DNA of 33,838 bases from a virus: positions 1 to 33,838 of IMG/VR virus record IMGVR_UViG_3300042564_000688, one strand, 5' to 3'. The translations under genes were made by a program, and so were the position numbers. Shown piece by piece: positions 13,319 through 30,609 of the stretch (the first letter of the stretch is position 1; every line of letters begins with the position of its first letter). The notes under the pieces are model-generated. The model saw only the letters and a list, made by a program, of their open reading frames with translations. It was not told where the DNA came from and ran no database searches.

Positions 13319-13325
13319 GTATTTA

Positions 13326-13330
13326 CCTTT
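13326..13330 (-). promoter_or_regulatory. Shine-Dalgarno of nrdJ
   Basis: AAAGG on the minus strand, 7 bases before ATG 13318. It is weaker than the AGGAGG sites of the capsid and connector genes, fitting moderate expression. Confidence 0.6.
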
Positions 13331-13349
13331 CTAAGCAAATTTAGATGAG

Positions 13350-13385
13350 TACTTTGAGTTTTCCAAAGTAGTGTTAAGTATATCA
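13350..13385 (-). promoter_or_regulatory. nrdJ promoter with a stem-loop at the mRNA 5' end
   Basis: On the minus strand TGATATACT (13385-13377) is an extended -10. The perfect 7-bp repeat TACTTTG / CAAAGTA with a 7-base loop (13370-13350) starts where transcription should begin, about 7 bases after the -10. The mRNA would therefore start with a hairpin, 19 bases before the Shine-Dalgarno. This may protect the 5' end or tune expression. Confidence 0.6.
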
Positions 13386-13398
13386 CAAATTTACAAAG

Positions 13399-13423
13399 AA
13401 AAAAACTCCGTTTTATGCGGAGT
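13399..13423 (-). terminator. Rho-independent terminator after the Mtd-like fibre gene
   Basis: On the minus strand ACTCCG-CATAAAA-CGGAGT is followed by at least six U (13404-13399). It is a 6-bp stem, GC-rich for this genome, with a 7-base loop and a clean U-tract. It ends the tail-fibre transcript just before the nrdJ promoter and so insulates the reductase from upstream transcription. Confidence 0.85.
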
Positions 13424-13475
13424 TTAAATCTGTTAACCTTTTGTTAAGGGTTAGTACTTTTAATTTTATTAAGTG

Positions 13476-15773: not shown

Positions 15774-15778
15774 TTGTG

Positions 15779-15806
15779 CTACTCCTTTAGTAGTTATATT
15801 ATAACA
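15779..15806 (-). promoter_or_regulatory. Promoter and Shine-Dalgarno stem-loop of the Mtd-like fibre gene
   Basis: On the minus strand TGTTATAAT (15806-15798) is an extended -10. Just after the expected start point CTACT-AAAGG-AGTAG (15793-15779) can fold into a 5-bp hairpin with part of the Shine-Dalgarno AAAGGAG in its loop. The leader is short, so folding could affect ribosome access. Confidence 0.55.
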
Positions 15807-15827
15807 GATAATTAGTTAAAATTATCT
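15806..15827. other. AT-rich stem-loop around the stop codon of the 153-residue gene
   Basis: Perfect 8-bp repeat AGATAATT / AATTATCT with a 6-base loop AGTTAA. It spans the TAA stop codon and abuts the next promoter. There is no U-tract on either strand, so it is not a classical terminator. It may be a weak transcript end or chance in AT-rich DNA. Confidence 0.4.
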
Positions 15828-16273
15828 ATTGCAATTCCGCCATTCCATTCCATTGCCCACTCATTTAAGTCATAGTATCCAGCATCTTCTGCTGAAGAAA
15901 ATATTGAGTCGTAATATCCAGCATCTTGGTAAACGCTGACAATAAGTCCATTTCCACCAATTGATGTATCGTGGATGTGTTGTCTAAGATCTGCTGTATC
16001 TGCAAAAGTTGCAATCATAATCCAGTCAGCAGCATCTGTTGAATAGATAGATAAATGTCTTGTTACAGTATCAAACCATAACTGTCCATTTACTGGGCTT
16101 CCTGGGGCTGTTGATGCTGGGGCAGCAATGGCTCCTTTGCTATCTACATAAAGTTTTGTTGTTGCATGTCCATTTTGTGTTGGGGTGCCAACTGTGACAG
16201 CCTGACCAAAAGTACCGCCTTCGGCTACTGATAGCCCATGCTTTACTTTAAAGTCTCTATTAGTTGTTGCCAC
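15812..16273 (-). CDS. Short tail-fibre-associated protein, GTG start
   Basis: 153 residues starting with GTG (MATTNRDFKVKHGLSVAEGG). A GGGAG Shine-Dalgarno precedes it in the 19-base gap after the upstream fibre gene. The N terminus resembles that of the 636-residue fibre (MATVTKDFRVKAGLVVEG), so both probably attach by the same short domain. The middle (GSPVNGQLWFDTVTRHLSIY) is a common fibre motif for a small beta domain. The C terminus holds two DAGYYDS/DAGYYDL repeats and ends in an aromatic, acidic stretch (LNEWAMEWNGGIAIDNFN). A role as short side fibre or fibre tip is inferred. No chaperone motif is seen. Confidence 0.82.
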   Translation of the reverse strand: MATTNRDFKVKHGLSVAEGGTFGQAVTVGTPTQNGHATTKLYVDSKGAIAAPASTAPGSPVNGQLWFDTVTRHLSIYSTDAADWIMIATFADTADLRQHIHDTSIGGNGLIVSVYQDAGYYDSIFSSAEDAGYYDLNEWAMEWNGGIAIDNFN

Positions 16274-16292
16274 AGTTGACTCCCGTCACTAA

Positions 16293-18203: not shown

Positions 18204-18219
18204 TTTATTATCTCCTTGG

Positions 18220-18666
18220 TTAAGCCTTCAAACCAGTACGCATGTAGCGTAAGGTAATCGGGGTCTGACTCACCACGGGAACTACAGTTAGTGAGACTGT
18301 ATCTCCTGCTCTAGAGACGCTAATGGTGCCAATATTCCCATCATTGTCTACTGTCCCATACTCACTGACATTATCATTTGTGCCGTCAGGGACTATGGTT
18401 AATTCTGTTGTGTAATATTTATTAGCACCACCAGAAGTTTTTTTAATTGAGATCACATACTTAACTGATCTCCATTCTGAGGCAGTAAAATTATCAAAGA
18501 TTGTACTGTTCTCAATACCAGCGATTGTTACTTCGTTATTGCCATCTGAACCAAGATCTGTTGATCTTGCAGATGAACTGTCAATTAAGTCAACATAGTC
18601 TGCTTGAGTTGGTCTATCCCCTGTCTGAAACAGGGCCTTTACGCTTGCTATTGATATTTTCGCCAT
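18220..18666 (-). CDS. Short tail fibre carrying the same distal domain
   Basis: 148 residues. The N terminus (MAKISIASVKALFQTGDRPT, then QADYVDLIDS) is a short attachment segment of a kind common in phage fibre proteins. From about residue 55 (FTASEWRSVKYVISIKKTSG, then YYTTELTIVPDG and VSEYGTV) it aligns with the C-terminal 90 residues of the 636-residue fibre: the same KY(V/I)..(I/M)KK, E(L/I), DG, EY order. The two are therefore paralogous distal domains on different shafts. The ATG lies 6 bases after TGATATAAT with no Shine-Dalgarno, so a leaderless mRNA is likely. It is the first gene of the stretch running to the terminator at 13.4 kb. Receptor binding is inferred, not shown. Confidence 0.83.
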   Translation of the reverse strand: MAKISIASVKALFQTGDRPTQADYVDLIDSSSARSTDLGSDGNNEVTIAGIENSTIFDNFTASEWRSVKYVISIKKTSGGANKYYTTELTIVPDGTNDNVSEYGTVDNDGNIGTISVSRAGDTVSLTVVPVVSQTPITLRYMRTGLKA

Positions 18667-18672
18667 GCCTGA

Positions 18673-18681
18673 ATTATATCA
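18673..18681 (-). promoter_or_regulatory. Extended -10 promoter, leaderless start
   Basis: TGATATAAT on the minus strand ends exactly 6 bases before ATG 18666. There is no Shine-Dalgarno and no clear -35. This is the cleanest extended -10 with leaderless spacing in the fibre region. Confidence 0.65.
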
Positions 18682-18687
18682 TATATT

Positions 18688-18909
18688 TCAAAGTATATAG
18701 TTAGAGAAGCCAATTATCTGCAATGGAATTGCTGGTATGTTGCCAAGGCTGTTAGGTATCTTAGTTGCTGTAAATCTTATTCTAAAGGGTAGGAGTGAAT
18801 TTATACTTACCCCACGATTTGTGTCAACAATTTCTACATTTGGAAAAGAAACAGTTTCAACCACTCTTGTAAAAACAGGAGTATTGCTTTTTATTGTAAC
18901 GCTTGCCAT
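18688..18909 (-). CDS. Small unknown protein in tail-gene cluster
   Basis: 73 residues starting MASVTIKSNTPVFTRVVETV. The start codon overlaps the stop of the gene before it by one base (TAATG), so it is translated by coupling. The sequence is beta-prone (RIRFTATKIPNSLGNIPAIP) with no Cys, signal peptide or membrane helix. No family is recognised. By location and size it may be a small baseplate or fibre-attachment piece. It is the last gene of its operon, since a new promoter follows at once. Confidence 0.75.
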   Translation of the reverse strand: MASVTIKSNTPVFTRVVETVSFPNVEIVDTNRGVSINSLLPFRIRFTATKIPNSLGNIPAIPLQIIGFSNYIL

Positions 18910-19322
18910 TAATTTGTAACATCTTCAAGAAGAGTTATCTTGCCTTGGGCAACCGTCCAAACAAGGGTATCTTGTGGAAGACGTAACTCAATATCAAAAA
19001 TATCATCTGTTCTTAACTGTGCGGTTTGGGCTGCAGTTAGGTTAATCTTAAACTCTCCGTCTTCATCATCTTCATCTTGTGCAGGATTAACTGTAAAAAG
19101 TATTGTTGCGGTGTCCGTAATTATTTGAGGATCAACTATTGTGGTTGGTCTTTTAAATTCTGCCTCTATTGTCCAATCAGGAATATTTAAAGGCTGCTGC
19201 GTATCATCTGTTAGGTAGACCATAAAGGATGCTGTATCTCCTTTTACAATAGTCCAATTAACAAATGGTGGTGCTTCACCAATGTCGTATGTAGATGCGC
19301 CTTGACCTCTATAAGTTGCCAT
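18909..19322 (-). CDS. Baseplate-upper-protein-like beta sandwich (RGDT family, paralog 1)
   Basis: 137 residues from ATG 19322, which overlaps the previous stop as TAATG; a longer GTG-started version (19352) would lie inside that gene and is unlikely. After a short lead (MATYRGQGASTYDIGEAPPF) comes NWTIVKGDTASFMVYLTDDT, the mark of small baseplate beta-sandwich proteins such as the N-terminal domain of BppU. The same (R/K)GDT..F/L pattern occurs in the genes at 31191-31544 and 32408-32824. The middle has an acidic run (NPAQDEDDEDGEFKINLT) and the end is ITLLEDVTN, like the DVT/DVS ends of its paralogs. It is probably a fibre-holding element at the tail tip; this is family-level inference. 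Confidence 0.82.
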   Translation of the reverse strand: MATYRGQGASTYDIGEAPPFVNWTIVKGDTASFMVYLTDDTQQPLNIPDWTIEAEFKRPTTIVDPQIITDTATILFTVNPAQDEDDEDGEFKINLTAAQTAQLRTDDIFDIELRLPQDTLVWTVAQGKITLLEDVTN

Positions 19323-19849
19323 TATGCTAAACCTGCTTTCATTGATCCCCACGTTCCATTGCCTTTTGGCTGTCCAACTACAATTATTCCAGTTGATGCA
19401 TTTGACTTAGCAACAACTGCTACCGCCCCTGATCCACCAGCAGGAATTGTATCTGTAAGTCCTCCACCATTTGCAACGTATAGGATTTCTCCAGCGGTAT
19501 ATGAAGAAGTATCAATATTTTCAAATATACCAGAAACAATTATTACTCCATCTGACCCGTTAGTAATTGCTGCCTGTGTTATTCCTATCATTGGGAAAGT
19601 TGCTAAATCATCTGAGTCACATTTTGCAATTGTTGGTTTTGTTGAGTACCCTGAAATATATACAGGAGTTCCTTTTGCAATTGTTGAGCCTGTTGCATTT
19701 CTAACTTCAAGTGAAATAAAAGGAAGACCAACATTTGAAATAACATCTTCTATCCGCTCAGCAAGTGATTGAATGTCTCCATGGACATTTACAGGGTCAG
19801 TTAAAACGGGATAAGGAAGATCATAAGTAGTAGTTGCGCCAGTAGCCAT
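19322..19849 (-). CDS. Tail-associated beta-rich protein
   Basis: 175 residues starting MATGATTTYDLPYPVLTDPV, followed by an HGDIQSLAERIEDVIS helix typical of phage fibre attachment segments. From residue 45 it is a beta-rich domain with regular Gly turns (ASTIAKGTPVYISG-like: TIAKGTPVYISGYSTKPTIA, FPMIGITQAAITNGSDGVII, TAGEILYVANGGGLTDTIPA), a layout seen in many virion proteins of DUF2190-like build and in fibre heads. It starts a three-gene coupled operon. Its TGGTATAAT promoter lies 10 bases before the ATG without a Shine-Dalgarno. Exact function is unknown. Confidence 0.8.
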   Translation of the reverse strand: MATGATTTYDLPYPVLTDPVNVHGDIQSLAERIEDVISNVGLPFISLEVRNATGSTIAKGTPVYISGYSTKPTIAKCDSDDLATFPMIGITQAAITNGSDGVIIVSGIFENIDTSSYTAGEILYVANGGGLTDTIPAGGSGAVAVVAKSNASTGIIVVGQPKGNGTWGSMKAGLA

Positions 19850-19859
19850 AATACTTATT

Positions 19860-19884
19860 ATTATACCACTTTCCGACGTGGAAA
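19860..19884 (-). promoter_or_regulatory. Minus-strand promoter with an operator-like inverted repeat
   Basis: TGGTATAAT (19868-19860) lies 10 bases before ATG 19849. Directly upstream lies TTTCC-GACGT-GGAAA (19870-19884), a perfect 5-bp inverted repeat with a 5-base centre, where a regulator could block polymerase. The divergent endolysin promoter begins 30 bases further on. Confidence 0.5.
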
Positions 19885-19914
19885 TTAAAAAGTTATAGAA
19901 ATGTTACCTAAAGT

Positions 19915-19970
19915 TTGACTTTGAGGCCAAATTCATGTTATAATTAATACATGCTACCAACGGGTAGCAT
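19915..19970 (+). promoter_or_regulatory. Consensus sigma-70 promoter of the endolysin gene with 5'-end hairpin
   Basis: TTGACT (19915-19920), an 18-base spacer and TATAAT (19939-19944) with an upstream TG make the best full promoter in the window. Starting where transcription should begin, ATGCTACC-AACG-GGTAGCAT (19951-19970) forms a perfect 8-bp hairpin with a tetraloop. It lies 9 bases before AGGAGG. It may stabilise the mRNA or serve as an operator. Confidence 0.8.
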
Positions 19971-19993
19971 TTGTTCTCTAGGAGGTTATTATT

Positions 19994-20539
19994 ATGAGAA
20001 GAGACAAGAAGGCTTGGATTGGAATCCTAGCATTGGTAGGAGTTGTGGCACCTTTTAGCAACTTTGCGAATGCATCAACTACTGAAAACAACTTACTAAT
20101 TAAACAGGCTGAAAACCCTGCTGCCACCCACAAGGTGGCTTTTGTTGTTTCTAAAGCAAAAATGTTAGAACGTTATGAAAACAAAACAGATCTTACAGAT
20201 CTTGAGTTAAAGAAGTTGCTTTCTTTGGTGGGATTTAAAGGCAACGACTTAGTAGTAGCCTGGGCTATTGCTAAGAAAGAATCTAATGGTCGTCCTTTAG
20301 CATTTAACGGAAACCATAAGACTGGGGACTCTTCCTATGGAATGTTCCAAATTAATATGATTGACAACCTGGGTCCAGATAGACGTGATAAGTTTGATCT
20401 TGACTCTAACGCTGAACTATTCAATCCCGTAAAAAATGCGGAGATTGCATACTATATGTCCAATGGTGGAGACGATTGGTCTTCTTGGAAGGGTATTACT
20501 CCAAAGACCAAAGAGTGGATGAAGAGGTTTCCTAAATAA
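19994..20539 (+). CDS. Secreted lysozyme-like endolysin (transglycosylase fold)
   Basis: 181 residues. The N terminus MRRDKKAWIGILALVGVVAP is a classical signal peptide: basic start, hydrophobic core, and ANA as a likely cleavage site after residue 27. The catalytic domain at about 78-170 has WAIAKKESNGRP (Glu96 the probable acid) and GDSSYGMFQINMID, the G(Y/L)(F/M)QI pattern of goose/SLT-type lysozymes. It should cleave the glycan strands of peptidoglycan outside the membrane for host lysis. With a Sec signal, export need not wait for a holin, although a holin-like gene exists at the right end. It is one of only two plus-strand genes, with its own consensus promoter, AGGAGG site and terminator, so it is controlled apart from the tail genes. 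A virion-associated lysin is less likely given the signal peptide. Confidence 0.9.
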   Translation: MRRDKKAWIGILALVGVVAPFSNFANASTTENNLLIKQAENPAATHKVAFVVSKAKMLERYENKTDLTDLELKKLLSLVGFKGNDLVVAWAIAKKESNGRPLAFNGNHKTGDSSYGMFQINMIDNLGPDRRDKFDLDSNAELFNPVKNAEIAYYMSNGGDDWSSWKGITPKTKEWMKRFPK

Positions 20540-20556
20540 TTTTTAGGTAATAAAAT

Positions 20557-20592
20557 ACCCCCTTGGAGAAATCCTTGGGGGTTTTTATTTTA
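20557..20592. terminator. Strong terminator between convergent endolysin and tail genes
   Basis: ACCCCC / GGGGGT (20557-20562 and 20577-20582) with an inner GGA/TCC helix capped by GAAA. On the plus strand the U-rich tail TTTTTATTTTAT follows. On the minus strand the tail is TATTTTATTA. It ends the endolysin mRNA and probably also the opposing adhesin/chaperone transcript. Confidence 0.9.
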
Positions 20593-20603
20593 TATTAAAT
20601 GGT

Positions 20604-20972
20604 TTAATTGATATCTACCCATGAGGTAGTTTCTTCGTCCCATGTATAAATTATATAATTTGATTCATCTGGTATTGGAGGGTCAACTGGTGGATTCCAA
20701 GTACAGGTTGCTTCATCTAGTAACCAAGATGGGTAAGGTTTTGGTGAGATAAAAGCATCTCTAATCGCATCATATGACATTCCAATAGCGGCATATTGTT
20801 TACGAAAGTTGTTATTATATGAGGTTTGTTTCCAATTGGTATACCCGCCAGACCAGTTTTCTAGCCACACAAGTCCTGAAGCCTCTTCATTTAAAGGATC
20901 TAATTCTAAGTTATTAATTACAATAATATCAATAACAATATTATTTTCATCTAATTTTGCAAAGTGTGCCAT
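20604..20972 (-). CDS. Putative adhesin-assembly chaperone, copy E (IVxNN subtype)
   Basis: 122 residues from ATG 20972, which overlaps the adhesin stop as TAATG; an upstream extension to 21002 would run inside the adhesin gene. It starts MAHFAKLDENNIVIDIIVIN and contains the family core WKQTSYNNNFRKQYAAIGMS, YD.IRDAFISPKPYPSWLL, DEATCTWNPP and the ending YTWDEETTSWVDIN. Four complete paralogs lie in this window, each directly behind a Gly-rich adhesin. Their constancy beside variable adhesins suggests a dedicated folding or attachment factor, as for tail-fibre assembly proteins. This is inference, and the family may instead be a structural cap. It pairs with an adhesin ending SGSITF. A bidirectional terminator follows. 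Confidence 0.85.
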   Translation of the reverse strand: MAHFAKLDENNIVIDIIVINNLELDPLNEEASGLVWLENWSGGYTNWKQTSYNNNFRKQYAAIGMSYDAIRDAFISPKPYPSWLLDEATCTWNPPVDPPIPDESNYIIYTWDEETTSWVDIN

Positions 20973-22417
20973 TAGAAAGTTATACTCCCGCTTCCAGTCC
21001 ATGTATATGTTCTATATCCACCACTAACAGATACGCTTGGGCTTCCAGTTGTTGCTACTGGTGCATTAAGATTGCTTGAATAACGAATGACTACTATTCC
21101 GCTATGACCACTGCCACCAGGGCCATATGTGCCCCACGGATTTACTTGGCTTGACCCACCGCCACCGCCGCCGTAGTATGTAGCGTTTCCACCAGGTCCA
21201 CCATTATGACCAGATCCAGCACCACCACCACCAGAGCCACCAGGTGCTGGTGATCCGTAGTTTGTCCAACCAGTACCGCCACCACCACCTGCATAAGTTA
21301 CAGATGAACCAGTTATTGAACTAGCCCTACCTGCGCCGCCGTAAGCCTCAGTTGAAGCAAAGGAGCCATCACAATTATTAGTAATTCCGCCTTGCCCACC
21401 TGCTCCACCGCCGCCAGACCCGCCGTAATAACTACACGCTCCAAATTGATTTTGTTTTCCACCATCATTTCCTTGCCCAGCAATTCCATTTCCGCCGTAA
21501 GACCCACCTCCACCAGAGCCACCGTTTCCACCAGTATCGCTGTAACCGCCATAGCCGCCGCCGCTGCAGGAGATTGAAGAGAATGAAGATCCAGCGCCGC
21601 TATTTCCGTTTGCACTACCACCTGCACCGCCTGCTCCACCGCCACCCACTCCTACTGAATAAACAACGCCAGTACTTACTCCTAGAGTTCCTTCTAACAT
21701 TCCGCCGCCACCGCCACCGCCCATGGTGCCGCCGCCGCTGGTGGGACTTAGTGCGCCGCCGCCGCCGCCAGCAACTACTAGGTACTCAACAGAAGAAACT
21801 GTAAAGACAGATGTAACAGAGTTAGAAGCACTGCTTGCAGCAGATGCACCATTTGCATTAGTTGCAGTGACTGTGTAGGTACGAGAACCACCAGTAAGTT
21901 CAGTTACTGTGATAGGGCTGGATGCTCCAGTATTAGAACGTCCAGAAGATGAAGTTGCAGTATAGCCAGTGATAGCAGAGCCACCAGTAGCAGCAGATGC
22001 AGTAAAGGGAACTGATACAACTCCAGATGTACCACCAGAGGCAGTGCCAATAGTTGGAGCAGAAGGGACAGTGGTTGCAGTTATAGAAGAAGAAGCGCTT
22101 GAAGCAGGACTAGTTGCAGATGTATTTGTTCCAGTAACAGTAAAAGTATAAGAAGTGGCAGATTGAAGACCTGTTACAGTCAAGGGTGATCCAGCACCAG
22201 AGGCTGTAAATGATCCAGGAGAAGATGTTGCTGTGAAAGATGTAGAGGTTCCGCCTGTAGGAGATGCCGTAAATGCAACGGTAGCAGAACCATTATTATA
22301 AGCCCTAGAAGTACCTACATTTGTAGCGGCACCAATAGTAGGTGCATCAGGTACATCAGGAATTGCAGTACCACTCTTAGTTATACCAGATGCATTTGCT
22401 CTTTTAATGTTGGCCAT
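20972..22417 (-). CDS. Glycine-rich FN3 adhesin, copy E
   Basis: 481 residues. After MANIKRANASGITKSGTAIP come two fibronectin-III domains (about 25-118 and 119-205; the first with NVGTSRAYNNGSATVAFTAS, the second with SGRSNTGASSPITVTELTGG). Then SSVEYLVVAGGGGG opens a region of about 215 residues dominated by Gly runs (about 215-430). The end is HSGIVVIRYSS and a conserved tail GGYRTYTWTGSGSITF. The Gly-rich part resembles polyglycine-II adhesins such as phage S16 gp38, which bind host surface proteins. The family is inferred from composition. The ATG lies 6 bases after TATAAT without a Shine-Dalgarno. It carries Cys in the Gly-rich part (SSISCSGG, GACSYYGG, NNCDG). Confidence 0.87.
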   Translation of the reverse strand: MANIKRANASGITKSGTAIPDVPDAPTIGAATNVGTSRAYNNGSATVAFTASPTGGTSTSFTATSSPGSFTASGAGSPLTVTGLQSATSYTFTVTGTNTSATSPASSASSSITATTVPSAPTIGTASGGTSGVVSVPFTASAATGGSAITGYTATSSSGRSNTGASSPITVTELTGGSRTYTVTATNANGASAASSASNSVTSVFTVSSVEYLVVAGGGGGALSPTSGGGTMGGGGGGGMLEGTLGVSTGVVYSVGVGGGGAGGAGGSANGNSGAGSSFSSISCSGGGYGGYSDTGGNGGSGGGGSYGGNGIAGQGNDGGKQNQFGACSYYGGSGGGGAGGQGGITNNCDGSFASTEAYGGAGRASSITGSSVTYAGGGGGTGWTNYGSPAPGGSGGGGAGSGHNGGPGGNATYYGGGGGGSSQVNPWGTYGPGGSGHSGIVVIRYSSNLNAPVATTGSPSVSVSGGYRTYTWTGSGSITF

Positions 22418-22447: not shown

Positions 22448-22795
22448 TTATACCCAAGAAATTGTTGTTTCATCCCAAGTGTAGTCTTTAGGATCTGTTT
22501 CATCAAATATTGGATAATCAATTGGTGGTTCCCAATTGCAAGTATCTTCATTTAATAACCAAGACTCAAAAGGTTTTGGTGGAATAAAAGCATCTCTGCC
22601 TTCATCGTATTTATAGCCAATACCTGCATAGTTCTTGCGGATATTGTTGTTGTAACTTGTACGTTTACAGGTTTGACCTCTAAAGTTTCCATACCAAGTT
22701 TCTGTATCTAAGCCTTCAATGGTTTCTGTTTCGTCAATACCAGCAATAACTTCTGTAACAATGTTGTTGCTATCTAAGAATGCGTAATATGCCAT
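22448..22795 (-). CDS. Putative adhesin-assembly chaperone, copy D (WYGNFRGQ subtype)
   Basis: 115 residues from ATG 22795, inside the TAATG overlap with the adhesin D stop. It starts MAYYAFLDSNNIVTEVIAGI and differs from copies B and E in its first half: DETETIEGLDTETWYGNFRG replaces the IVVNN region. The shared core follows (RTSYNNNIRKNYAGIGYKYD, RDAFIPPKPFESWLLNEDTC, YTWDETTISWV). It has two Cys. Copy C has the same first half, and both C and D stand behind adhesins ending VSW(A/S). That pairing is the main reason to think the N-terminal half reads the adhesin C terminus. No signal peptide or membrane helix. Confidence 0.84.
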   Translation of the reverse strand: MAYYAFLDSNNIVTEVIAGIDETETIEGLDTETWYGNFRGQTCKRTSYNNNIRKNYAGIGYKYDEGRDAFIPPKPFESWLLNEDTCNWEPPIDYPIFDETDPKDYTWDETTISWV

Positions 22796-23979
22796 TATGC
22801 CCAACTCACATTTCCAGTACCAGCAGTAATAGTTGATACTTTAAATCCACCACTTGGTGCTGCTGTTGTACCTGTTAAACCAGCACCAATTGTAATTGTT
22901 TTATTGTCAGGATATTTAAGAATAACAATACCCGAACCGCCAGTACCACCATTGCCACCACATTTTGTGCCACCGCCTCCACCGCCAGTATTTGCAGTAG
23001 CGCCATAGCCAGAATGTCCGTTATTACGGCCTCCACCGCCACCTCCTGCGCCGCCACCACCAGGAGATCCTGTTTCGGCTTCGTAACTACATCCATTTTG
23101 ACCTGCACCTCCAGTACCGCCACCACCACCACCATAAGTAACTGATACCCCTGTAATAGAAACTGCTACACCTGAACCACCAGCACCGCCATTATCAACA
23201 CTTCCATTATTACCAACGGCACCAGCACCGCCGCCGCCGCCAGCGCCAGCACCCGAAGGACCAAACACATTACTGTTATTTGAACCCGAACCACCTCGGA
23301 AGCCTTGACCAGAAGTACCTGCTGGTTGAAGATTAGAGTTATTACAGGAACCTCCGCCGCCTGAGCCTCCAGAAGTATTAACTGTACCACCACCCAAAGA
23401 TGTAACAGTAGAAAATACAGAATTAGAACCGTTAGTCGAAGCAGGACCACCTGCACCAACAGTTACTGTATAACCAACACCACCTGTAACAGGTAATGCG
23501 GTTTCTAAACTTCCACCGCCGCCAGTTGCAGTAACGGTTGAACGCAGACCACCTGCTCCACCACCGCCACCACCTGCTGGAGCCATTCCTCCACTACCTC
23601 CGCCTGCACCACCAGCAACAACTAAATAATTAATAGTAAGTGCAGGAGTTATTGCATTAGATGCAGCAGATTCTGGACCAACAGCAGTTGAGTTTGTTCC
23701 TTTAACTTTAAATGTATAGGCAGTTCCATCTGTTAATCCAGCAACTGTAATAGGAGAGGCACCTGTTCCTGTAAATCCACCAGGAGTAGAGGTTGCTGTA
23801 AATGTTGTTACTGTGCCACCAGTTGCTGCTGCTGTATATGCAACTGAAACTGAATTACCAGTTGCTAAATCTGTGACGGCACCAATAGTAGGAGCATCTG
23901 GAACATCAGGAATAGGAGTAATGCCTGACATAACGTTCCTTAATGAAAATTTTTCATTGCTTGCTCTACGTACTGACAT
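22795..23979 (-). CDS. Glycine-rich FN3 adhesin, copy D
   Basis: 394 residues, the shortest of the five. After MSVRRASNEKFSLRNVMSGI comes a single fibronectin-III domain (about 24-112, VPDAPTIGAVTDLATG to SNAITPAL). INYLVVAGGAGGGSGG then opens the Gly-rich domain (about 115-345) with Cys-containing loops (GGSCNNSN, QNGCSYEAE, TKCGG). The end is SGIVILKYPDNKTITIGAGL and GGFKVSTITAGTGNVSWA, a different C-terminal class from copies A, B and E. A tail-tip adhesin role is inferred. The TATAAT at 23991-23986 is 6 bases before the ATG and there is no Shine-Dalgarno, suggesting a leaderless mRNA that also carries its chaperone gene. Confidence 0.87.
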   Translation of the reverse strand: MSVRRASNEKFSLRNVMSGITPIPDVPDAPTIGAVTDLATGNSVSVAYTAAATGGTVTTFTATSTPGGFTGTGASPITVAGLTDGTAYTFKVKGTNSTAVGPESAASNAITPALTINYLVVAGGAGGGSGGMAPAGGGGGGAGGLRSTVTATGGGGSLETALPVTGGVGYTVTVGAGGPASTNGSNSVFSTVTSLGGGTVNTSGGSGGGGSCNNSNLQPAGTSGQGFRGGSGSNNSNVFGPSGAGAGGGGGAGAVGNNGSVDNGGAGGSGVAVSITGVSVTYGGGGGGTGGAGQNGCSYEAETGSPGGGGAGGGGGGRNNGHSGYGATANTGGGGGGTKCGGNGGTGGSGIVILKYPDNKTITIGAGLTGTTAAPSGGFKVSTITAGTGNVSWA

Positions 23980-23985
23980 ACTAGT

Positions 23986-23991
23986 ATTATA
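23986..23991 (-). promoter_or_regulatory. TATAAT with leaderless spacing, adhesin D
   Basis: TATAAT ends 6 bases before ATG 23979, separated by the palindrome ACTAGT. No ribosome-binding site is seen. Confidence 0.6.
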
Positions 23992-23997
23992 CTCTGT

Positions 23998-24348
23998 TTA
24001 TTCCGTTGGAATTTCTACCCAAGAGGTAGTTACTTCATTCCAGATATATAGTTTGTCATCTGTGGGTCTAGGTGTAGGTGCTTCCCACAAACAAGTTTCT
24101 TCATTTAATAGCCATGAATCAAAAGGTTTTCCTGGTATAAAAGCATCACGAGTTTCATCGTAAGTAAATCCGATACTAGCGTAGTTTTTACGTATGTTTC
24201 CATTGTAAGAAGTACGAACACACTTCTGTCCCCTGAAATTTCCATACCAAACTTCAGGAGTTAATCCATCAATCAGTTCAGTCTCGTCAAGTCCAGTAAT
24301 AACTTCAGTTACTCTATTATGATCGTCTAAAAGTGCGTAATGTGCCAT
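23998..24348 (-). CDS. Putative adhesin-assembly chaperone, copy C (WYGNFRGQ subtype)
   Basis: 116 residues from ATG 24348 (TAATG overlap with adhesin C). It begins MAHYALLDDHNRVTEVITGL, then DETELIDGLTPEVWYGNFRG, like copy D. The core RTSYNGNIRKNYASIGFTYD, RDAFIPGKPFDSWLLNEETC and the ending IWNEVTTSWVEIPTE follow; the last five residues match copy B (WVEIPTE). The mix of a D-like front and B-like end suggests recombination among paralogs. Function is inferred from its constant place behind the adhesins. Confidence 0.84.
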   Translation of the reverse strand: MAHYALLDDHNRVTEVITGLDETELIDGLTPEVWYGNFRGQKCVRTSYNGNIRKNYASIGFTYDETRDAFIPGKPFDSWLLNEETCLWEAPTPRPTDDKLYIWNEVTTSWVEIPTE

Positions 24349-25769
24349 TATGACCAACTCACAGTTCCACTACCAGAAGTGATAGTTGTTGTTTTAAATC
24401 CACCAGCAGGACCAGATGTTGAACCAGAAACCCCACTAAGTGAGATTGTTTTAGAGTCTGGATATTTAAGAATTACGATGCCAGAACCTCCATTACCGCC
24501 ATTTGCTGAACCGCCTGAATAACCAACACCACCACCTCCACCGCCAGTATTAGCACTACCAGCAGGTCCAGTTGTTGAAGAAGATCCTCCATTAGCACCG
24601 CCGCCTGTACCACCAGTACCAGGACCAGAAGCATTTTGATTACCACCACCACCGCCACCTGCGTAAGTAACACCGTTAATTGATGAAGCAGCACCGTTAC
24701 CACCAGAACCTGCAGGGAATTGTGGAGCCAGTCCTCCAGCATCACCACCTGCAGCACTTTTACCGCCACCACCAGCGCCTGCATATCTTGAAGAAAGAGT
24801 ATTAGTTCCACCATTACTTCCTTGGCCACCAACTCCAGCACCGCCACCACGAGAACCGCCTGCACCGCCACCACCAGCACCGCCGCCAGAACCGCCGCCG
24901 CCGCCGCCTGCGTTATCATTGCCTCCAGCACCTCCGCCGTATGCAGTTATAGAATAAAAAACGCTATTTGAGCCTGTTGATGAAGCACCGCCACCACCAC
25001 CAACCGTAACGGTATGGTTAGTAGAAGCAGGAACCTGACTTACTGAACCATCTAACATTCCACCTGCGCCGCCGCCACCGCCAGTATTGTTAGAACCGCC
25101 TCCACCTCCTCCAGCAACAACTGTATAACTAACTGTAAATCCAAAAGTAGAAGTTAAAGAATTAGATGCAGAAGATGCAGCAGATGTACCGTTTGCGTTA
25201 GTTGCAGTAACTGTATAAGTATAAGTACCACTAGTAATTTCAGTTACTGTAATAGGGCTGGATGCTCCAGTATTAGAACGTCCAGAAGATGATGTTGCAG
25301 TAAAAGTTGTTATAGCAGAACCACCTGTTCCGCCTGCGGTAAATGGTACAGATACAACACCACCTTCTCCGCCGCCAGATGCAGTTCCAATAGTAGGGGC
25401 TTGAGGAACAGTTGTTGCTGTTATAGAAGAAGATGCAGCAGATTCAATACCTACTACGCTTGTAGATGTAACTCCTGTTGCTTTAAATGTATAAGATGTT
25501 GCACTTTGCAATCCCGTCACGGTAAGTGGAGAAGCACCACTAGCAGTATATGAACCTGGTGTACTAATAACATTATATGTAGCAGGAGTTCCACCTGTTG
25601 CAACCGCTGTTATTGTAACAGTAGCAGAACCATTGTTATATGCACGGCTAGTGCCTACGTTAACAGCGCTAACTGTTGGGGCATCAGGAAAGTCCATGAT
25701 CTCGGATACTGCTGTTAGACCATCTGGAGTTCCTTCAATGCGTTCATCGTTTGCTCTACGTATTGACAT
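24348..25769 (-). CDS. Glycine-rich FN3 adhesin, copy C
   Basis: 473 residues. The start MSIRRANDERIEGTPDGLTA is close to copy D. Two fibronectin-III domains follow (about 27-118 and 119-208). The second shares a 41-base identical DNA stretch with adhesin E around ASSPITVTE. The Gly-rich domain (about 215-430) opens with SYTVVAGGGGGGSNNTGGGG and lacks Cys, unlike D and E. The C terminus is SGIVILKYPDSKTISLSGVS and GGFKTTTITSGSGTVSWS, the same class as copy D. TATAAT (25781-25776) is 6 bases before the ATG. It is probably a receptor-binding tip protein; alternatives are a capsid or tail decoration. Confidence 0.87.
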   Translation of the reverse strand: MSIRRANDERIEGTPDGLTAVSEIMDFPDAPTVSAVNVGTSRAYNNGSATVTITAVATGGTPATYNVISTPGSYTASGASPLTVTGLQSATSYTFKATGVTSTSVVGIESAASSSITATTVPQAPTIGTASGGGEGGVVSVPFTAGGTGGSAITTFTATSSSGRSNTGASSPITVTEITSGTYTYTVTATNANGTSAASSASNSLTSTFGFTVSYTVVAGGGGGGSNNTGGGGGAGGMLDGSVSQVPASTNHTVTVGGGGGASSTGSNSVFYSITAYGGGAGGNDNAGGGGGGSGGGAGGGGAGGSRGGGAGVGGQGSNGGTNTLSSRYAGAGGGGKSAAGGDAGGLAPQFPAGSGGNGAASSINGVTYAGGGGGGNQNASGPGTGGTGGGANGGSSSTTGPAGSANTGGGGGGVGYSGGSANGGNGGSGIVILKYPDSKTISLSGVSGSTSGPAGGFKTTTITSGSGTVSWS

Positions 25770-25775
25770 ATTAGT

Positions 25776-25781
25776 ATTATA
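25776..25781 (-). promoter_or_regulatory. TATAAT with leaderless spacing, adhesin C
   Basis: TATAAT ends 6 bases before ATG 25769, with the spacer ACTAAT nearly the same as that of adhesin D (ACTAGT). No Shine-Dalgarno. Confidence 0.6.
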
Positions 25782-25787
25782 TCTTAT

Positions 25788-26165
25788 TTATTCCGTTGGA
25801 ATTTCTACCCAGGAAATTGTTGCTTCATCCCAGGTATAATACTTAGGATCTGCTTCATCAAGTATTGGATAATCAACTGGTGGTTCCCATTTACAGGTTT
25901 CCTCATTTAGAATCCAAGATTCAAATGGTTTTGGTTCAATAAAAGCATCACGTTCTTGGTCATACAAATAATCAATTCCCGCATAGTTCTTACGCATGTT
26001 TCCATTATAGGAAGTCTGCGCCCAGCGACCACCAAATAGATTGAAACAAAAGTCAATGCCCTTTTGCTCAGACTCTTGATTATTTTCATCTAGTATTTCA
26101 CTGTTATTGACTACAATAACTCTTAGTACTTTATTGTTGTCATCTAGTTCTGCAAAATGTGCCAT
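25788..26165 (-). CDS. Putative adhesin-assembly chaperone, copy B (IVxNN subtype)
   Basis: 125 residues starting MAHFAELDDNNKVLRVIVVN, then NSEILDENNQESEQKGIDFC and FNLFGGRWAQTSYNGNMRKN. The core RDAFIEPKPFESWILNEETC and the ending YTWDEATISWVEIPTE are shared by the family. It differs from copies C and D in the first half and agrees with copy E (NN.E, long acidic loop, WxQTSYN). It is the only copy with a separate Shine-Dalgarno (AAGGAG overlapping the adhesin B stop) rather than a TAATG overlap. Similar small genes are common beside fibres in aquatic phages and are mostly unannotated. A chaperone role is inferred. Confidence 0.85.
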   Translation of the reverse strand: MAHFAELDDNNKVLRVIVVNNSEILDENNQESEQKGIDFCFNLFGGRWAQTSYNGNMRKNYAGIDYLYDQERDAFIEPKPFESWILNEETCKWEPPVDYPILDEADPKYYTWDEATISWVEIPTE

Positions 26166-26178
26166 TTTTTATTTCTCC

Positions 26179-27792
26179 TTAGAATGTAATTGAGCCTGAG
26201 CCCGTAAATGTATAAACATAGTTTGAACCTGAAGTGTTAACTGCTGGTCCGCCAGTCGTTGAGTTTGCTGCTCGTGCTGCACTAATAATAACTACACCTG
26301 ATGAACCACTACCTGCTGCTGCGCCGTCATCACCACGCATAGAACCTCCGCCTGAACCAGTGTTGGCTACACCGCTAGTTGGTGTACCGCCTGCTGATGC
26401 GCCGTTTCCACCAAGGCCTGAACCACCTGAACCTGCAGCGCTATCGCCAGAGCCACCGCCTCCGCCTCCTGCAGAGGTTATTGAAGTACCTGAAATAGAA
26501 GTTCCCACTCCAGGACCACCAGTAGTTACGTTACCAGCACCACCTGCACCTCCACCACCAGATGAGTTTTGAACGTTGTAACCTGCTCCACCATTATTTT
26601 GTGGTGAACCAGAAACACCTCCTGTACCAGAAGTACCTGGACCAGAGAATCCGCCGTTACCTGCTCCACCAGTTAAACCAAGTGCACTTGATGCAGTTCC
26701 ATTTGCTTTAGTATTAGTACCTGTAGATCCTGCTCCACCACCACCTACTGTAATTGTGTATGTTGCAGGAGTTAGGTTAGTTGAACCTGAGTAATAACCA
26801 CCTGCACCTCCACCTGCTCCGTAACAGGCACCTGGGGTACCTTTACCACCAGAACCAGCACCACCAATTATAAAGTAAGAAACAGCAACAGTAAAGGCAG
26901 ATGTAACAGAGTTAGAAGCACTACTTGCAGCAGATGTACCATTAGTATTAGTTGCAGTAACTGTATAAGTGTAAGAACCAGCAGTAACCTCAGTTACTGT
27001 AATAGGAGAAGATGCTCCTGTATTAGTACGTCCTGAAGATGAAGTTGCAGTATACGAAGTAATAGCAGAACCACCTGTAGCACCAGCAGTAAACGGAACT
27101 GATACTACACCAGATGTACCACCAGTAGCAGTTCCAATAGTGGGAGCCTGTGGAACAGTGGTTGCTGTTGTAGATGCAGATGCAGCCGATGCAGTAGAAA
27201 CGCCATTACCATTTGTTGCAGTAACTGCATATGTGTATGCAGTTCCTGACTGCTGACCTGTTACAGTAAGTGGACTTGACGCACCAGTTGCTGTGTAAGA
27301 ACCAGGGGTACTAGTAACTGTATAACCAGTAATAGCAGAGCCACCATCAGCAGCAGAAGCCGTAAAAGCAACAGATGCAGATCCATTATTATATGCACGA
27401 CCAGAACCATTATTAGTAACTGCTCCAATGGTAGGTGCTTGTGCAGTGGTAGTTGCTGTAATAGAGTTAGATGAAGAAGACGCTGGCCCACTTCCTGTTG
27501 AATTAGTAGGCACTGCTGTAAAAGTGTAAGAAGTTCCAGTCTGTAATCCTGTTACTGTCACAGGAGATGCAGATGTAGCCGTAAATGAGCCTGGGTCACT
27601 TGTTACTACGTAAGAAGTTGGAGATCCACCTGTTGCACCTGCAGTTACAGTTATTGTTGCAGCACCATTGTTATAAGCACGAGAGGTACCTACGTTTGTT
27701 GCAGTACCAATAGTCGGGGTATCTGGAACGTCAGCAATAGGAGTAACACCTAACATGACGCTCTTGAGTGAAACCTTGTTAGTGATAGTCAT
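26179..27792 (-). CDS. Glycine-rich FN3 adhesin, copy B
   Basis: 537 residues, the longest of the set, with three fibronectin-III domains (about 22-118, 119-215 and 216-300). NVGTSRAYNNGAATITVTAG in the first and GSGRAYNNGSASVAFTAS in the second show they are duplicated units. VSYFIIGGAGSGGKGTPGAC then opens a Gly-rich domain (about 305-495) that is less Gly-dense than the others and richer in Ser/Thr. The end is SSGVVIISAARAANSTTGGP, then SNYVYTFTGSGSITF, the same terminal class as copies A and E. It has a Shine-Dalgarno (AGGGG, 8 bases) and follows a 109-residue gene. The extra FN3 unit probably lengthens the stalk. Confidence 0.87.
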   Translation of the reverse strand: MTITNKVSLKSVMLGVTPIADVPDTPTIGTATNVGTSRAYNNGAATITVTAGATGGSPTSYVVTSDPGSFTATSASPVTVTGLQTGTSYTFTAVPTNSTGSGPASSSSNSITATTTAQAPTIGAVTNNGSGRAYNNGSASVAFTASAADGGSAITGYTVTSTPGSYTATGASSPLTVTGQQSGTAYTYAVTATNGNGVSTASAASASTTATTVPQAPTIGTATGGTSGVVSVPFTAGATGGSAITSYTATSSSGRTNTGASSPITVTEVTAGSYTYTVTATNTNGTSAASSASNSVTSAFTVAVSYFIIGGAGSGGKGTPGACYGAGGGAGGYYSGSTNLTPATYTITVGGGGAGSTGTNTKANGTASSALGLTGGAGNGGFSGPGTSGTGGVSGSPQNNGGAGYNVQNSSGGGGAGGAGNVTTGGPGVGTSISGTSITSAGGGGGGSGDSAAGSGGSGLGGNGASAGGTPTSGVANTGSGGGSMRGDDGAAAGSGSSGVVIISAARAANSTTGGPAVNTSGSNYVYTFTGSGSITF

Positions 27793-27814
27793 TTAAATTA
27801 CCCCTAACTGGTTA

Positions 27815-28144
27815 TTAAGAAATTTCGCTACCGAATAATGAAAATGATAGGTTTGCTGTTGAAGCATATACACGTACGACATCTGTTGTCGCTAGTGTTA
27901 CACCAAGTGTTAACGCAGTTGTATCAGAAGCAGCAACTGTTGCACCGTAAACGATGTAGTGCTTTGCTTCTGCTGTCGCACCTGCTGGGCTTACCGCAAT
28001 GCGGTATGTAGCAGCAGAGGCTGCCTGGTTGCAGATGATGATCGTTGAGATCACAGCAGAGGTTGATGACGGAACTGTGTAAAGCGTAGTCAGCGTTGTT
28101 GCCGCTGGTGCTGCTTGAGCAATTGTCTTGTATGTTGTTGCCAT
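27815..28144 (-). CDS. Small virion protein of a family common beside phage fibres
   Basis: 109 residues starting MATTYKTIAQAAPAATTLTT, followed by LYTVPSSTSAVISTIIICNQ and ending STANLSFSLFGSEIS. The pattern (Q..PAATT.TTLYTVP..T.AVISTI, a YRIAVSPAGA strand, then a T.D.VRVYAST..LSF..FG.E end) is recalled from many cyanophage- and pelagiphage-like genomes, where it is uncharacterised; one small beta sandwich is likely. It lies between adhesins A and B in place of the chaperone that would be expected after A. It starts from AAGGAG 7 bases before the ATG and is preceded by a promoter-like region with a hairpin. Confidence 0.83.
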   Translation of the reverse strand: MATTYKTIAQAAPAATTLTTLYTVPSSTSAVISTIIICNQAASAATYRIAVSPAGATAEAKHYIVYGATVAASDTTALTLGVTLATTDVVRVYASTANLSFSLFGSEIS

Positions 28145-28165
28145 TTATATCTCCTTTTTATACAT

Positions 28166-28184
28166 ATAATGATTTTGTCATTAT
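28166..28184 (-). promoter_or_regulatory. Stem-loop in the leader of the 109-residue gene
   Basis: Perfect 7-bp repeat ATAATGA / TCATTAT with a 5-base loop. It lies 3-13 bases from the expected transcript start of the promoter at 28194-28212, another leader that seems to begin with a hairpin. The 12-base string TTTTGTCATTAT recurs at 28258-28269. Confidence 0.5.
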
Positions 28185-28193
28185 TGTAATGGT

Positions 28194-28212
28194 GCTATAC
28201 CAAATTGTACCA
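28194..28212 (-). promoter_or_regulatory. Tandem extended -10 elements ahead of the 109-residue gene
   Basis: On the minus strand TGGTACAAT (28212-28204) and TGGTATAGC (28202-28194) lie one after the other in the 190-base gap after adhesin A. The first matches the extended -10 better. They can restart transcription for the adhesin B to E array. Confidence 0.5.
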
Positions 28213-28296
28213 TATTTTTATATTAGTAGGTTGACTTATTCCCTTTTAATTTTTGAATTTTGTCATTATAGATATTTTTATTATGTATTTAATCGT

Positions 28297-28332
28297 TTAA
28301 TCAATTTCTACCCAAAAGGTAGTTTTTTTGCT
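28297..28332 (-). pseudogene. Remnant of a fifth chaperone gene behind adhesin A
   Basis: Eleven codons and a stop read SKKTTFWVEID on the minus strand, against ETTSWVDIN at the end of copy E and VTTSWVEIPTE in copy C. The DNA match ACTACCT..TGGGTAGA is clear. It continues about 25 bases past the stop (ATTAAAC-ATT-AATA) into the downstream flank of copy E, so this is a deletion scar of the whole gene rather than chance. It is in frame with adhesin A, which is closed by two TAG codons (28338-28333). Nothing upstream of codon 11 survives. Confidence 0.7.
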
Positions 28333-28335
28333 CTA

Positions 28336-29709
28336 CTAGAATGTTATACTTCCGCTTCCTGTCCAAGTGTAATTATGATACCCGCCGCTATTTGAATATG
28401 AAGCGCCAGATTGTGATGAAGCAGCAGTGAAAGTATTTGAATATCTAATGGCTACTATTCCTGAACCACCTGCACCTGCATCGCCTGCCTGATATGCAGC
28501 ACCGCCACCGCCACCTCCAGTATTAACAGTTCCTGCAGTGCCTACTGAAGAAGCATTAGAACCTGCACCCCCACCTCCAGAACCACCAGCAGCGCCGCTT
28601 TGGTTAGAGTTACCACCACCGCCACCACCTCCGCCAAAGGTTCCTGCAAATGTACTTGTGCCAGCACCGCCAATACCGCTAACAAGGCCAGATGCACCAG
28701 CGCCACCAGCGCCACCACCTCCGCCAGCCCAAATACCAGAACCAACGGTACCGTTTGATCCATTTCCACCTGAGTTGCCTTGACCACTTGTTCCTGTAGC
28801 ACCAGTTCCACTAGGAGTATAACCACCGCCACCAGAACCACCTGTAGAAGCAGCCCCACCACCAGTACCTCCTGCACCACCACCTGTTGCAGTAATAGAG
28901 CCAAAGACAGAGTTCTGTCCGTTAGTAGAACTACCAGATCCAGAACCGCCACCACCAATAGTTACATTAACGGTTCCACTTACACCTACTGATCCAGTTA
29001 GAACTCCACCTGCACCTGCGCCGCCGCCTGCGCCTCCATTTTGACGGCCACCACCGCCGCCGCCTGCAACTACTACGTATTCTACAGAAGAAGGGGCAGT
29101 GGCTGCTGGAGTTACGCTATTGCTTGCACTAGATGCAGATGAAACACCGTTAACATTTGTAGCAGTTACTGTAAATGTATAAGCAGTTCCATTTGATAAT
29201 CCTGAAACTGTGATAGGACTTGCACCGCTGCCTGTTGCTCCTCCAGGAGATGCAGTAGCAATAAATGAAGAAACTGCAGCACCACCTGTTGCCCCCGCTG
29301 TGTAAGTAACAGTTGCAGAAGAGTTAGCACCCGTAGCAGTTCCAATTGTTGGTGCTTGTGGAACTGTAGTTGCAGTAATACTATTTGAAGCCGATGAAGC
29401 AATAGATGAACCTGAAGCATTATTTGCTGTAACCGTAAATGTATAAGAAATACTTGATTGCAAACCAGTTACTGTAATAGGTGAGGAAGCAGAACTGCCT
29501 GTGAAACCACCAGGACTAGAGGTTGCTGTAAATGAAGTTGCTTCTGGTCCACTTGCAGCAGCAGTAAAGGTAACCGTTGCAGATCCATTATTGTAGGCAC
29601 GAGAAGTGCCAACATTAGTAGCAGTTCCAATTGTTGGGGCTTGTGGAACTAATGATCCACCGCCAAATCCAAATGCACGAGACCCAACTATACTAATGAG
29701 TGGACTCAT
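28336..29709 (-). CDS. Glycine-rich FN3 adhesin, copy A (lacks a complete chaperone)
   Basis: 457 residues. The start MSPLISIVGSRAFGFGGGSL differs from the other four. Two fibronectin-III domains follow (about 20-112 and 113-203; VGTSRAYNNGSATVTFTAAA in the first). SSVEYVVVAGGGGGG opens the Gly-rich region (about 205-415). The C terminus is GSGIVAIRYSN, then GGYHNYTWTGSGSITF, nearly the same as copy E. The ATG follows directly on the TAA of the 299-residue fibre gene, with no Shine-Dalgarno, so it is probably translated by coupling. Behind it lies only a scar of a chaperone gene, so it may be inactive, use the chaperone of copy E, or need none. Confidence 0.86.
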   Translation of the reverse strand: MSPLISIVGSRAFGFGGGSLVPQAPTIGTATNVGTSRAYNNGSATVTFTAAASGPEATSFTATSSPGGFTGSSASSPITVTGLQSSISYTFTVTANNASGSSIASSASNSITATTVPQAPTIGTATGANSSATVTYTAGATGGAAVSSFIATASPGGATGSGASPITVSGLSNGTAYTFTVTATNVNGVSSASSASNSVTPAATAPSSVEYVVVAGGGGGGRQNGGAGGGAGAGGVLTGSVGVSGTVNVTIGGGGSGSGSSTNGQNSVFGSITATGGGAGGTGGGAASTGGSGGGGYTPSGTGATGTSGQGNSGGNGSNGTVGSGIWAGGGGGAGGAGASGLVSGIGGAGTSTFAGTFGGGGGGGGNSNQSGAAGGSGGGGAGSNASSVGTAGTVNTGGGGGGAAYQAGDAGAGGSGIVAIRYSNTFTAASSQSGASYSNSGGYHNYTWTGSGSITF

Positions 29710-30609
29710 TTAAGCAAATTTCGTTTGGGCCTCAAGGACTGTAAAAGTCGCATTAGCAGTTTTAATGATTGTAACTGAATAAGAATCAATAGAACTTGCA
29801 TTGCCAGAAGTAATTGCTGTACCGCCTTGAATTTTTGGAGTAACTGCATTGCCATCTATTGTAATTGCTGTTGGGTAATAAGGAGTTGCACCATTGGTAT
29901 TCATAAATACTAAAGTAATAGAATTTCCAATTGCCATAAGTGAATTAAGGGTTGTTCCAGAATCGCCACGGAAGTTAAGAGTAAAGTTAGCAGATGCATT
30001 AGTTGTATAATAAAGAATAGACTGAGTAACAATATCAAAATTAACTGTTCCTGTTGCTGCAGTTGCAGATATTGTCATAAACTCTTGTGGAGACTTTAAG
30101 GTTTTATTAGTTATAGTTTCTGTTCCCGCAAGAGTTGCAAAGTCTGCATCAGTAACTGCTGTATTAAATTGTGCAATTGTTCCTGATACCGTGTTTGAAC
30201 CAAGAGCAACTGTCTTATTTGTTAAAGTCACAGAATTTGAAAGACCTACAGATGGGGCTGCCCATTTAACTCCAAGAGTTTGTGCTGAATCGGCTGTTAA
30301 AACAAAGTCATTGCTTCCAACTGCTAGATTATCAACTGCATCATTTGCAGAGCCTATAATTAAGTCGCCTTTAGCATCAATAATAGATTTGGCTACACTA
30401 TCACCTCCACTAAGGTTTGTAACCTGTGTTTGAAGATAGTTTAATGTATGGGCAATTGATGGTTCTATAAGATTTGCGGTATTTGCATTTGCTGTATTGT
30501 ATGATGAAGATCCGTAGTGATATAGTCTAAACGCTGCTTGAATGTCAGCATTGTCTGCGTACCCAGGTATTTGTGTGGGATAAATTGCGCCAATAGATTC
30601 AGATGCCAT
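29710..30609 (-). CDS. Tail fibre protein with shared repeat modules
   Basis: 299 residues starting MASESIGAIYPTQIPGYADN, with a helical segment to about 70 (IAHTLNYLQTQVTNLSGGDS). IIDAKGDLIIGSANDAVDNL and SNDFVLTADSAQTLGVKWAA are the same modules as in the 636-residue fibre. TLTNKTVALGSNTVSGTIAQ and FNTAVTDADFATLAGTETIT are nearly identical to units of the Mtd-like fibre. From about 180 it is a beta-rich distal domain (FDIVTQSILYYTTNASANFT, then GNSITLVFMNTNG). It is the first gene of the adhesin array and has TGATATAAT plus AAGGTGA. Role as a shaft or anchor for the following adhesins is possible but unproven. Confidence 0.86.
   Translation of the reverse strand: MASESIGAIYPTQIPGYADNADIQAAFRLYHYGSSSYNTANANTANLIEPSIAHTLNYLQTQVTNLSGGDSVAKSIIDAKGDLIIGSANDAVDNLAVGSNDFVLTADSAQTLGVKWAAPSVGLSNSVTLTNKTVALGSNTVSGTIAQFNTAVTDADFATLAGTETITNKTLKSPQEFMTISATAATGTVNFDIVTQSILYYTTNASANFTLNFRGDSGTTLNSLMAIGNSITLVFMNTNGATPYYPTAITIDGNAVTPKIQGGTAITSGNASSIDSYSVTIIKTANATFTVLEAQTKFA

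Follow-up and report, generated by a model that had tools for sequence, protein, structure and literature searches.

A probable relic of a fifth adhesin-partner gene at a former edge of a viral adhesin island

The window analysed here, by which we mean the whole 33.8 kb of a record of an uncultured bacterial virus (IMG/VR IMGVR_UViG_3300042564_000688, positions 1 to 33,838), carries an island of adhesin genes and their small partners. On the minus strand the order is up117, up187, up299, adhesin A, the short relic that is the subject of this report, sp109 and the adhesin–partner pairs D, C, B and E, and this array abuts a lysozyme-like lysin gene that is itself on the plus strand (19994–20539; Pfam SLT_3, 3.1e-16). 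The left border of the island is the conserved upstream neighbour up299 (29710–30609, minus strand), and the right border is the lysin terminator (20560–20581, plus strand). The portal protein is closest to those of Streptomyces phages, at 44% identity, which suggests that the host of the virus is actinobacterial. A B12-dependent ribonucleotide reductase gene (11288–13318) lies amid the structural genes.

All members of the four pairs are on the minus strand. Adhesin D (26179–27792) is of the SITF type and is 93% identical in a related locus, L176, and its partner D (25788–26165) is of the MAHFA class. Adhesins C (24348–25769) and B (22795–23979) are, by sequence, of the GTVSW and GNVSW types, and go with partner C (23998–24357; MAHYA class; 48% identical to partner E, 2.7e-29) and partner B (22448–22804; MAYYA class; 52% identical to partner E, 4.4e-35). 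Nearest the lysin are adhesin E (20972–22417), of the SITF type, and partner E (20604–20972), an intact gene for 122 aa that starts with the ATG at 20972. A similarity search of the window finds these four intact partner genes, and the relic would be the fifth. Adhesin A itself (28336–29709, minus strand) combines an fn3 domain (5.5e-10) with a glycine-rich domain (Pfam Gly_rich_2, 2.7e-11) and a SITF-type C-terminus, and it stands without a partner; Gly_rich_2 is found in adhesin E as well, and fn3 is above the cut-off in A only.

The protein sequence of adhesin A ends in ...TWTGSGSITF, and two TAG codons follow on the minus strand (28333–28338), the adhesin's own stop at 28338–28336 and a second one at 28335–28333 that aligns with a TGG (Trp) codon in the intact partner ends of E and of L085, a locus with the same neighbours. 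Behind them, at 28332–28297 on the minus strand, the reading frame of adhesin A continues as SKKTTFWVEID-stop, the final 11 codons and the stop of a partner gene. A first-pass annotation had placed a deletion scar of a partner gene here, in frame behind the adhesin and closed off by two TAG codons, and in its coordinates and its reading it was exact. TAG as a sense codon was considered and rejected: no tRNA gene was found in the window, and TAG closes 5 of the 33 genes examined, so that it is kept as a stop. Lacking a start codon and having two stops ahead of it, the relic is untranslated as such.

The relic itself is too short for a test with the profile of the partner family, and its homology to intact partners is observed at the level of the DNA. 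Together with its flank, it aligns with the end of partner E in a gapless block of 54 nt, 44 of which are identical (score 34) and about 22 of which lie beyond the stop, as had been claimed when the end was matched to copy E and similarity was noted past the stop. The comparison with shuffled sequence that had been proposed as a check leaves this claim standing: with the scar dinucleotide-shuffled 20,000 times, scores averaged 10.6 (sd 1.8) and peaked at 23. Partner E is not the nearest match, however, since the partner end of L085 is identical at 46 of the 54 positions (score 38, against a shuffle maximum of 23, n = 20,000). When the end of partner E is slid along the entire window, on either strand, the scar is the top site besides E itself; the ends of partners C and D score 20 and 17, and unrelated sites reach at most 16. 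The sequence 3′ of 2,879 distinct ORFs of at least 150 aa in the fetched loci scores at most 24, and does so via the lysin-side flank alone. A profile of partner tails was also matched to the DNA behind 230 distinct ORF ends that are glycine-rich and have no partner, where the best scores were 21.6, in a locus named L436, and 17.1, in the window, with the next at 9.0; of 13,800 shuffled ends a single one scored 15 or more, and all stayed below 18.

The reading that the similarity is a chance product of AT-rich DNA can appeal to the peptide. The motif T[TIL]xWV closes 11 distinct non-partner ORF tails in a set of 139,711 distinct tails, the scar and two cut-off true partners being among the 11, and permuted versions of the motif close 9 to 15, so that the peptide taken alone appears too common to be more than weak evidence for a relic. 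The nucleotide scores of 34 to 38 and the tail profile, in which a single shuffled end came to 15 or more, tell a different story, and together they exclude chance similarity as an explanation; we regard it as extremely improbable. By codon position, the mismatches number 4, 2 and 3 between the relic and E, and 4, 3 and 1 between the relic and L085, whereas the intact ends of E and L085 differ at 0, 1 and 4, that is, mostly at third positions. The numbers are small, and the spread is as expected of a frame that would no longer be under selection.

A stem of the form CTACC-n5-GGTAG is found in the end of partner E (20615–20629) and in the relic (28308–28322), with T residues after it on the plus strand. 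The tail may have been retained, on the loss of the partner, for a function as nucleic acid, namely as a hairpin that terminates transcripts or serves to mark the borders of modules. The perfect 5-bp stem is shared by partner E, the relic and the second relic described below, and it occurs in 5 of 32 TTxWV tails where 1.7 (sd 1.3) are expected from codon use. This excess is modest, however, the fold of the scar is unconvincing when set against shuffles (z of −1.5 on the minus strand and 0.5 on the plus strand), the L085 tail has no stem, and terminator-like sites in the region number 11 against 8.4 (sd 2.7) by chance. With a slight excess only, unremarkable folds and no match to an Rfam family, the hairpin was rejected as a conserved element, and we hold such a role for the tail to be very improbable.

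The synteny of the locus was examined in relatives. In L085, the nearest relative, the order is up299 (89% identical), adhesin, full partner and lysin, and hence an intact partner gene stands at the syntenic spot, with an adhesin on one side and the lysin on the other; relatives with a full gene here had been named as a further check on the scar, and L085 supplies one. The marks of a gene relic are accordingly all found, namely homology to an intact gene, a sequence that is untranslatable as such and a relative in which the gene at this position is intact. L085 is not the direct ancestor, as the C-terminus of its adhesin is unlike that of adhesin A. In two other loci, L086 and L087, up299 lies directly before the lysin with no adhesin between them.

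Downstream of the relic lies the 3′ flank of the lost partner (28275–28296, minus strand), which resembles the flanks of partner E and of L085 and ends at AATAAAAA. Immediately ahead of the lysin terminator, the usual sequence in relatives is AATAAAAA and then C residues, irrespective of the gene on its other side; the flank of the relic thus ends at the point where relatives meet the lysin terminator, and it diverges after that. The similarity past the stop, which had been tied to copy E, is not specific to E and is the edge beside the lysin terminator. This edge can be seen at work in L247, which is 99.3% identical to the window over 11488–20590 and then continues into a different island past the lysin terminator edge, and the switch marks the edge (20590) as a real exchange border. 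Consequently, we read the relic and its flank as the former right end of the island, at which adhesin A was once the last adhesin. The earlier claim that recombination had removed a complete partner gene stands in so far as a fifth partner stood here and was lost, but not in its completeness, as the last 11 codons and about 22 nt of flank remain.

The same anatomy is found in one other case, L436 and the window being the only ones among the 230 partnerless glycine-rich ORF ends to carry such a tail. In L436 (5345–5385) a headless partner tail, ATTSWVEVQ-stop, stands immediately behind the adhesin stop, and beyond it lie a terminator and, on the opposite strand, a lysin-like gene. In its relative L416 the partner at that spot is complete and ends in ATTSWVEIQ, and the two loci share DNA from the partner tail into the lysin side; no partner was found anywhere in the L436 record, a 20.8-kb piece. 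The relic in L436 and its intact counterpart in L416 indicate that a partner has been lost, and its tail retained, on at least two occasions. Partnerless adhesins are in themselves frequent. Fetching by the C-terminus of adhesin A alone yielded 65 loci. Of the 64 distinct cases that result when the window is added, 36 show a partner gene at 60 nt or less, 27 (window included) show none and 1 is too short. Counted without the window, a partner gene lies directly behind the fibre gene (within 60 nt) in 36 of 63 A-like loci and is absent in 26, 1 again being too short. These counts use only the set fetched by the adhesin C-terminus, loci L005–L084 having been fetched by the partner itself. A partner is present elsewhere within the fetched stretch in 15 of the 27 partnerless cases. 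With 26 of the 63 other loci lacking an adjacent partner, a missing neighbour does not imply a dead adhesin.

Beyond the old edge the window changes its affinities. The joint is located in 28254–28274, between a segment like L085, whose match ends at 28275, and a block like L176, whose match ends at 28253 and extends over 23953–28253 at 81%. This block comprises spacer, sp109, D and C; the genes upstream of the spacer in L176 are unrelated to those of the window. The AT-rich spacer (28145–28253, minus strand), common to L176, leads the cassette and probably contains a promoter, and the first gene of the joined cassette is sp109 (27815–28144, minus strand), which is 90–91% identical in L176. 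A 13-nt direct repeat, ATTTTGTCATTAT, flanks the spacer at 28172–28184 and 28257–28269, one copy lying inside the junction.

A junction of this kind raises the question of an assembly chimera, in which the contig would join two phages near 28254–28340. The nearest relatives do differ to the left and to the right of the junction, and no fetched contig spans 25643–33838 at 95% or more: near-identical records stop at 25642, and no independent fetched contig covers the scar or the junction. Pattern scans for the scar, exact or degenerate, returned just 3 intact partner ends (two distinct contigs and the L085 contig), with no match in genome_contigs, and the spacer pattern matched the L176 contig only. 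A DNA match to 28200–28500 was not found among named phages, whose relatives of the partner (35 records) are all below 60% identity. By itself, however, a chimera would not cut a partner down to 11 codons that directly follow a clean adhesin stop, the same anatomy is present in another phage, L436, and mosaic content is usual in these islands. We consider a chimera quite improbable.

The reading that we favour with good confidence is that the relic is the dead 3′ end of a fifth member of the partner family phrog_7759, lost by recombination from an ancestral A–partner–lysin order to which a cassette of the L176 type was joined. In our reconstruction, the ancestral island, from up299 to the lysin, would have consisted of adhesin A, then its partner and then the lysin terminator, as it does in L085 today. 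Recombination would have excised roughly 320–330 nt of the partner, an estimate based on how long partner E and the L085 partner are, with one end of the gap just 3′ of the adhesin stop and the other some 11 codons short of the partner stop; the tail and the flank would have stayed. The L176-related block (spacer-sp109-D-C, continuing into B-E) would have joined behind the old edge, at 28254–28274, either in a separate event or in the same exchange as the loss of the partner.

The gene may also have been lost without a deletion, if a partnerless glycine-rich adhesin was swapped in by a recombination whose right crossover fell inside the tail of the resident partner. Such a joint keeps the relic as a relic, its sole difference being the mode of gene loss, and it accords with the frequency of A-like loci that lack an adjacent partner, with the homology between L436 and L416, which starts inside the partner tail while their adhesin ends differ, and with the variation of islands as blocks among relatives. 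Adhesin A has a SITF end, however, which is usually accompanied by a partner, and partner tails make poor crossover sites, not being unusually conserved in DNA (0.50–0.62 in six-codon windows of the tail against 0.575 overall). The idea that partner tails serve as crossover sites conserved in DNA was therefore rejected, the tail windows showing about the gene-average conservation or less. We regard the swap as possible, if somewhat doubtful; an in situ deletion and a joint that brought a partnerless adhesin up to the tail of a former partner cannot be told apart. The breakpoints of the two relics are no more than about three codons apart, and both tails have the same CTACC/GGTAG stem. One may speculate that partner tails are preferred breakpoints, where edge adhesins are swapped and the chaperone is lost while its last 9–11 codons are kept, and that the stripped adhesins draw in trans on chaperones of the matching class, which they would have in common; we think this improbable.

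The partners belong to phrog_7759, a family to which PHROG assigns no function, and all 66 aligned partners match its profile, partner D at 3.2e-46 and partner E at 6.8e-41 over residues 1–120. Neither of these two has a Pfam-A match at E 0.001, tail-fibre assembly families included. An AlphaFold2 model of partner E (pLDDT 94.8) resembles gp25 of cyanophage Pam3 (Z 5.6, below 8; rmsd 1.8 over 54 residues) and, less closely, the fibre chaperone of phage Mu (Z 2.1, rmsd 3.4 over 55 residues). Among 69 aligned PDB chains, which are the top chains of Foldseek only and leave room for families outside them, these two alone reach a Z of at least 2, and both are tail-fibre chaperones; Foldseek taken alone gives no significance (Pam3 E 0.88), and no sequence similarity to PDB chains is detectable. 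The report on Pam3 describes gp24 and gp25 as a tail fibre and its chaperone, the latter with a variable N-terminal beta-sandwich that binds the distal fibre and a C-terminal alpha-helical trimerisation domain (PMC9608196; PDB 7YPX). As in that pair, there is here a glycine-rich fibre with a small chaperone-like protein whose model resembles the N-terminal domain and whose N-terminus covaries with the adhesin C-terminus. Unlike gp25, the partner has, in the model, a C-terminal half of strands and loops, with no helix after residue 40, and at the relic the gene is cut to 11 codons. The partner is thus predicted to have the domain by which tail-fibre chaperones of the Pam3 gp25 type bind the fibre, and it is probably a small tail-fibre chaperone or tip cap; lacking the helical C-terminal domain, it is not filed as a member of the gp25 family, with which it may share its way of working as a putative function. 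This gives a widespread PHROG family with no assigned function a candidate one, that of a fibre-binding chaperone.

Adhesin ends and partners are paired by class. In 151 pairs, SITF-like adhesins go with MAHF-type partners in 94 cases and with HY in 1, and GxVSW-like adhesins go with MAHY-type partners in 19 and with HF in none; 37 of the 151 fall in neither adhesin class, and the classes were defined after inspection of the sequences. In a Mantel-type test on 113 of the 151 pairs, short proteins and near-duplicates having been dropped, the last 40 aa of the adhesin correlate with the first 50 aa of the partner at r = 0.45 (permutation maximum 0.22). The stretches just before the last 40 aa give 0.07 and 0.05, which is weak evidence given that glycine-rich stretches are low in complexity, and the first 100 aa of the adhesin give 0.15, near the null edge (maximum 0.16). 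Linkage of neighbouring genes could account for part of the pairing.

By normalised C-terminal score, adhesin A is nearest to E (0.55), followed by D (0.36), C (0.22) and B (0.20), and partners D and E are of the same MAHFA class and are both still in the genome. As adhesin A is of the SITF type, nearly always paired with MAHFA, and D and E remain, it is probably folded in trans or unaided. Help in trans from D or E, of which the first-pass annotation had named only E, with dead weight as the other choice, is plausible, with about as much for it as against it; independence of a chaperone is somewhat less likely, and that the adhesin is dead weight seems unlikely. Alteromonas phages V22 and A5 are described as having homologous fibres of which that of V22 is chaperone-dependent and that of A5 is not (PMC10579305). 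The same source offers a likeness in the exchange of host-recognition modules between phages and a precedent for an adhesin outliving its helper; the chaperone gene is reported intact in both of those phages, whereas here it was lost beside one of five adhesins. The window thus presents a natural experiment, in which one adhesin without its neighbour stands beside four with theirs, on whether partners are one-to-one or shared by class.

Islands of tail proteins for host recognition are reported in marine phages and in phages of ‘Ca. Nanopelagicales’ (PMC3909814, PMC10202952), and like the present one they vary among close relatives; those accounts describe recruitment gaps and gene content, and here there is a gene relic at an island border. 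The relic is of an ordinary kind, a case of modular decay that is well resolved, and what the case usefully adds is a former edge of the island, a second, independent relic and the pairing by class of adhesin ends with partners. The relic places the growth of a host-recognition island in time and direction, giving its old end and the site where the cassette of a second phage joined, and the codons of a lost helper behind one of five adhesin genes show how these viruses shuffle their host-recognition parts. At the other end of the partner genes, the first codons (MAHFAK; for example at 20972) are conserved in DNA, third positions included (0.66 against an average of 0.41), and the start often lies in a TAATGGCAC overlap with the adhesin stop; this start is possibly a site of translational coupling or of crossover.
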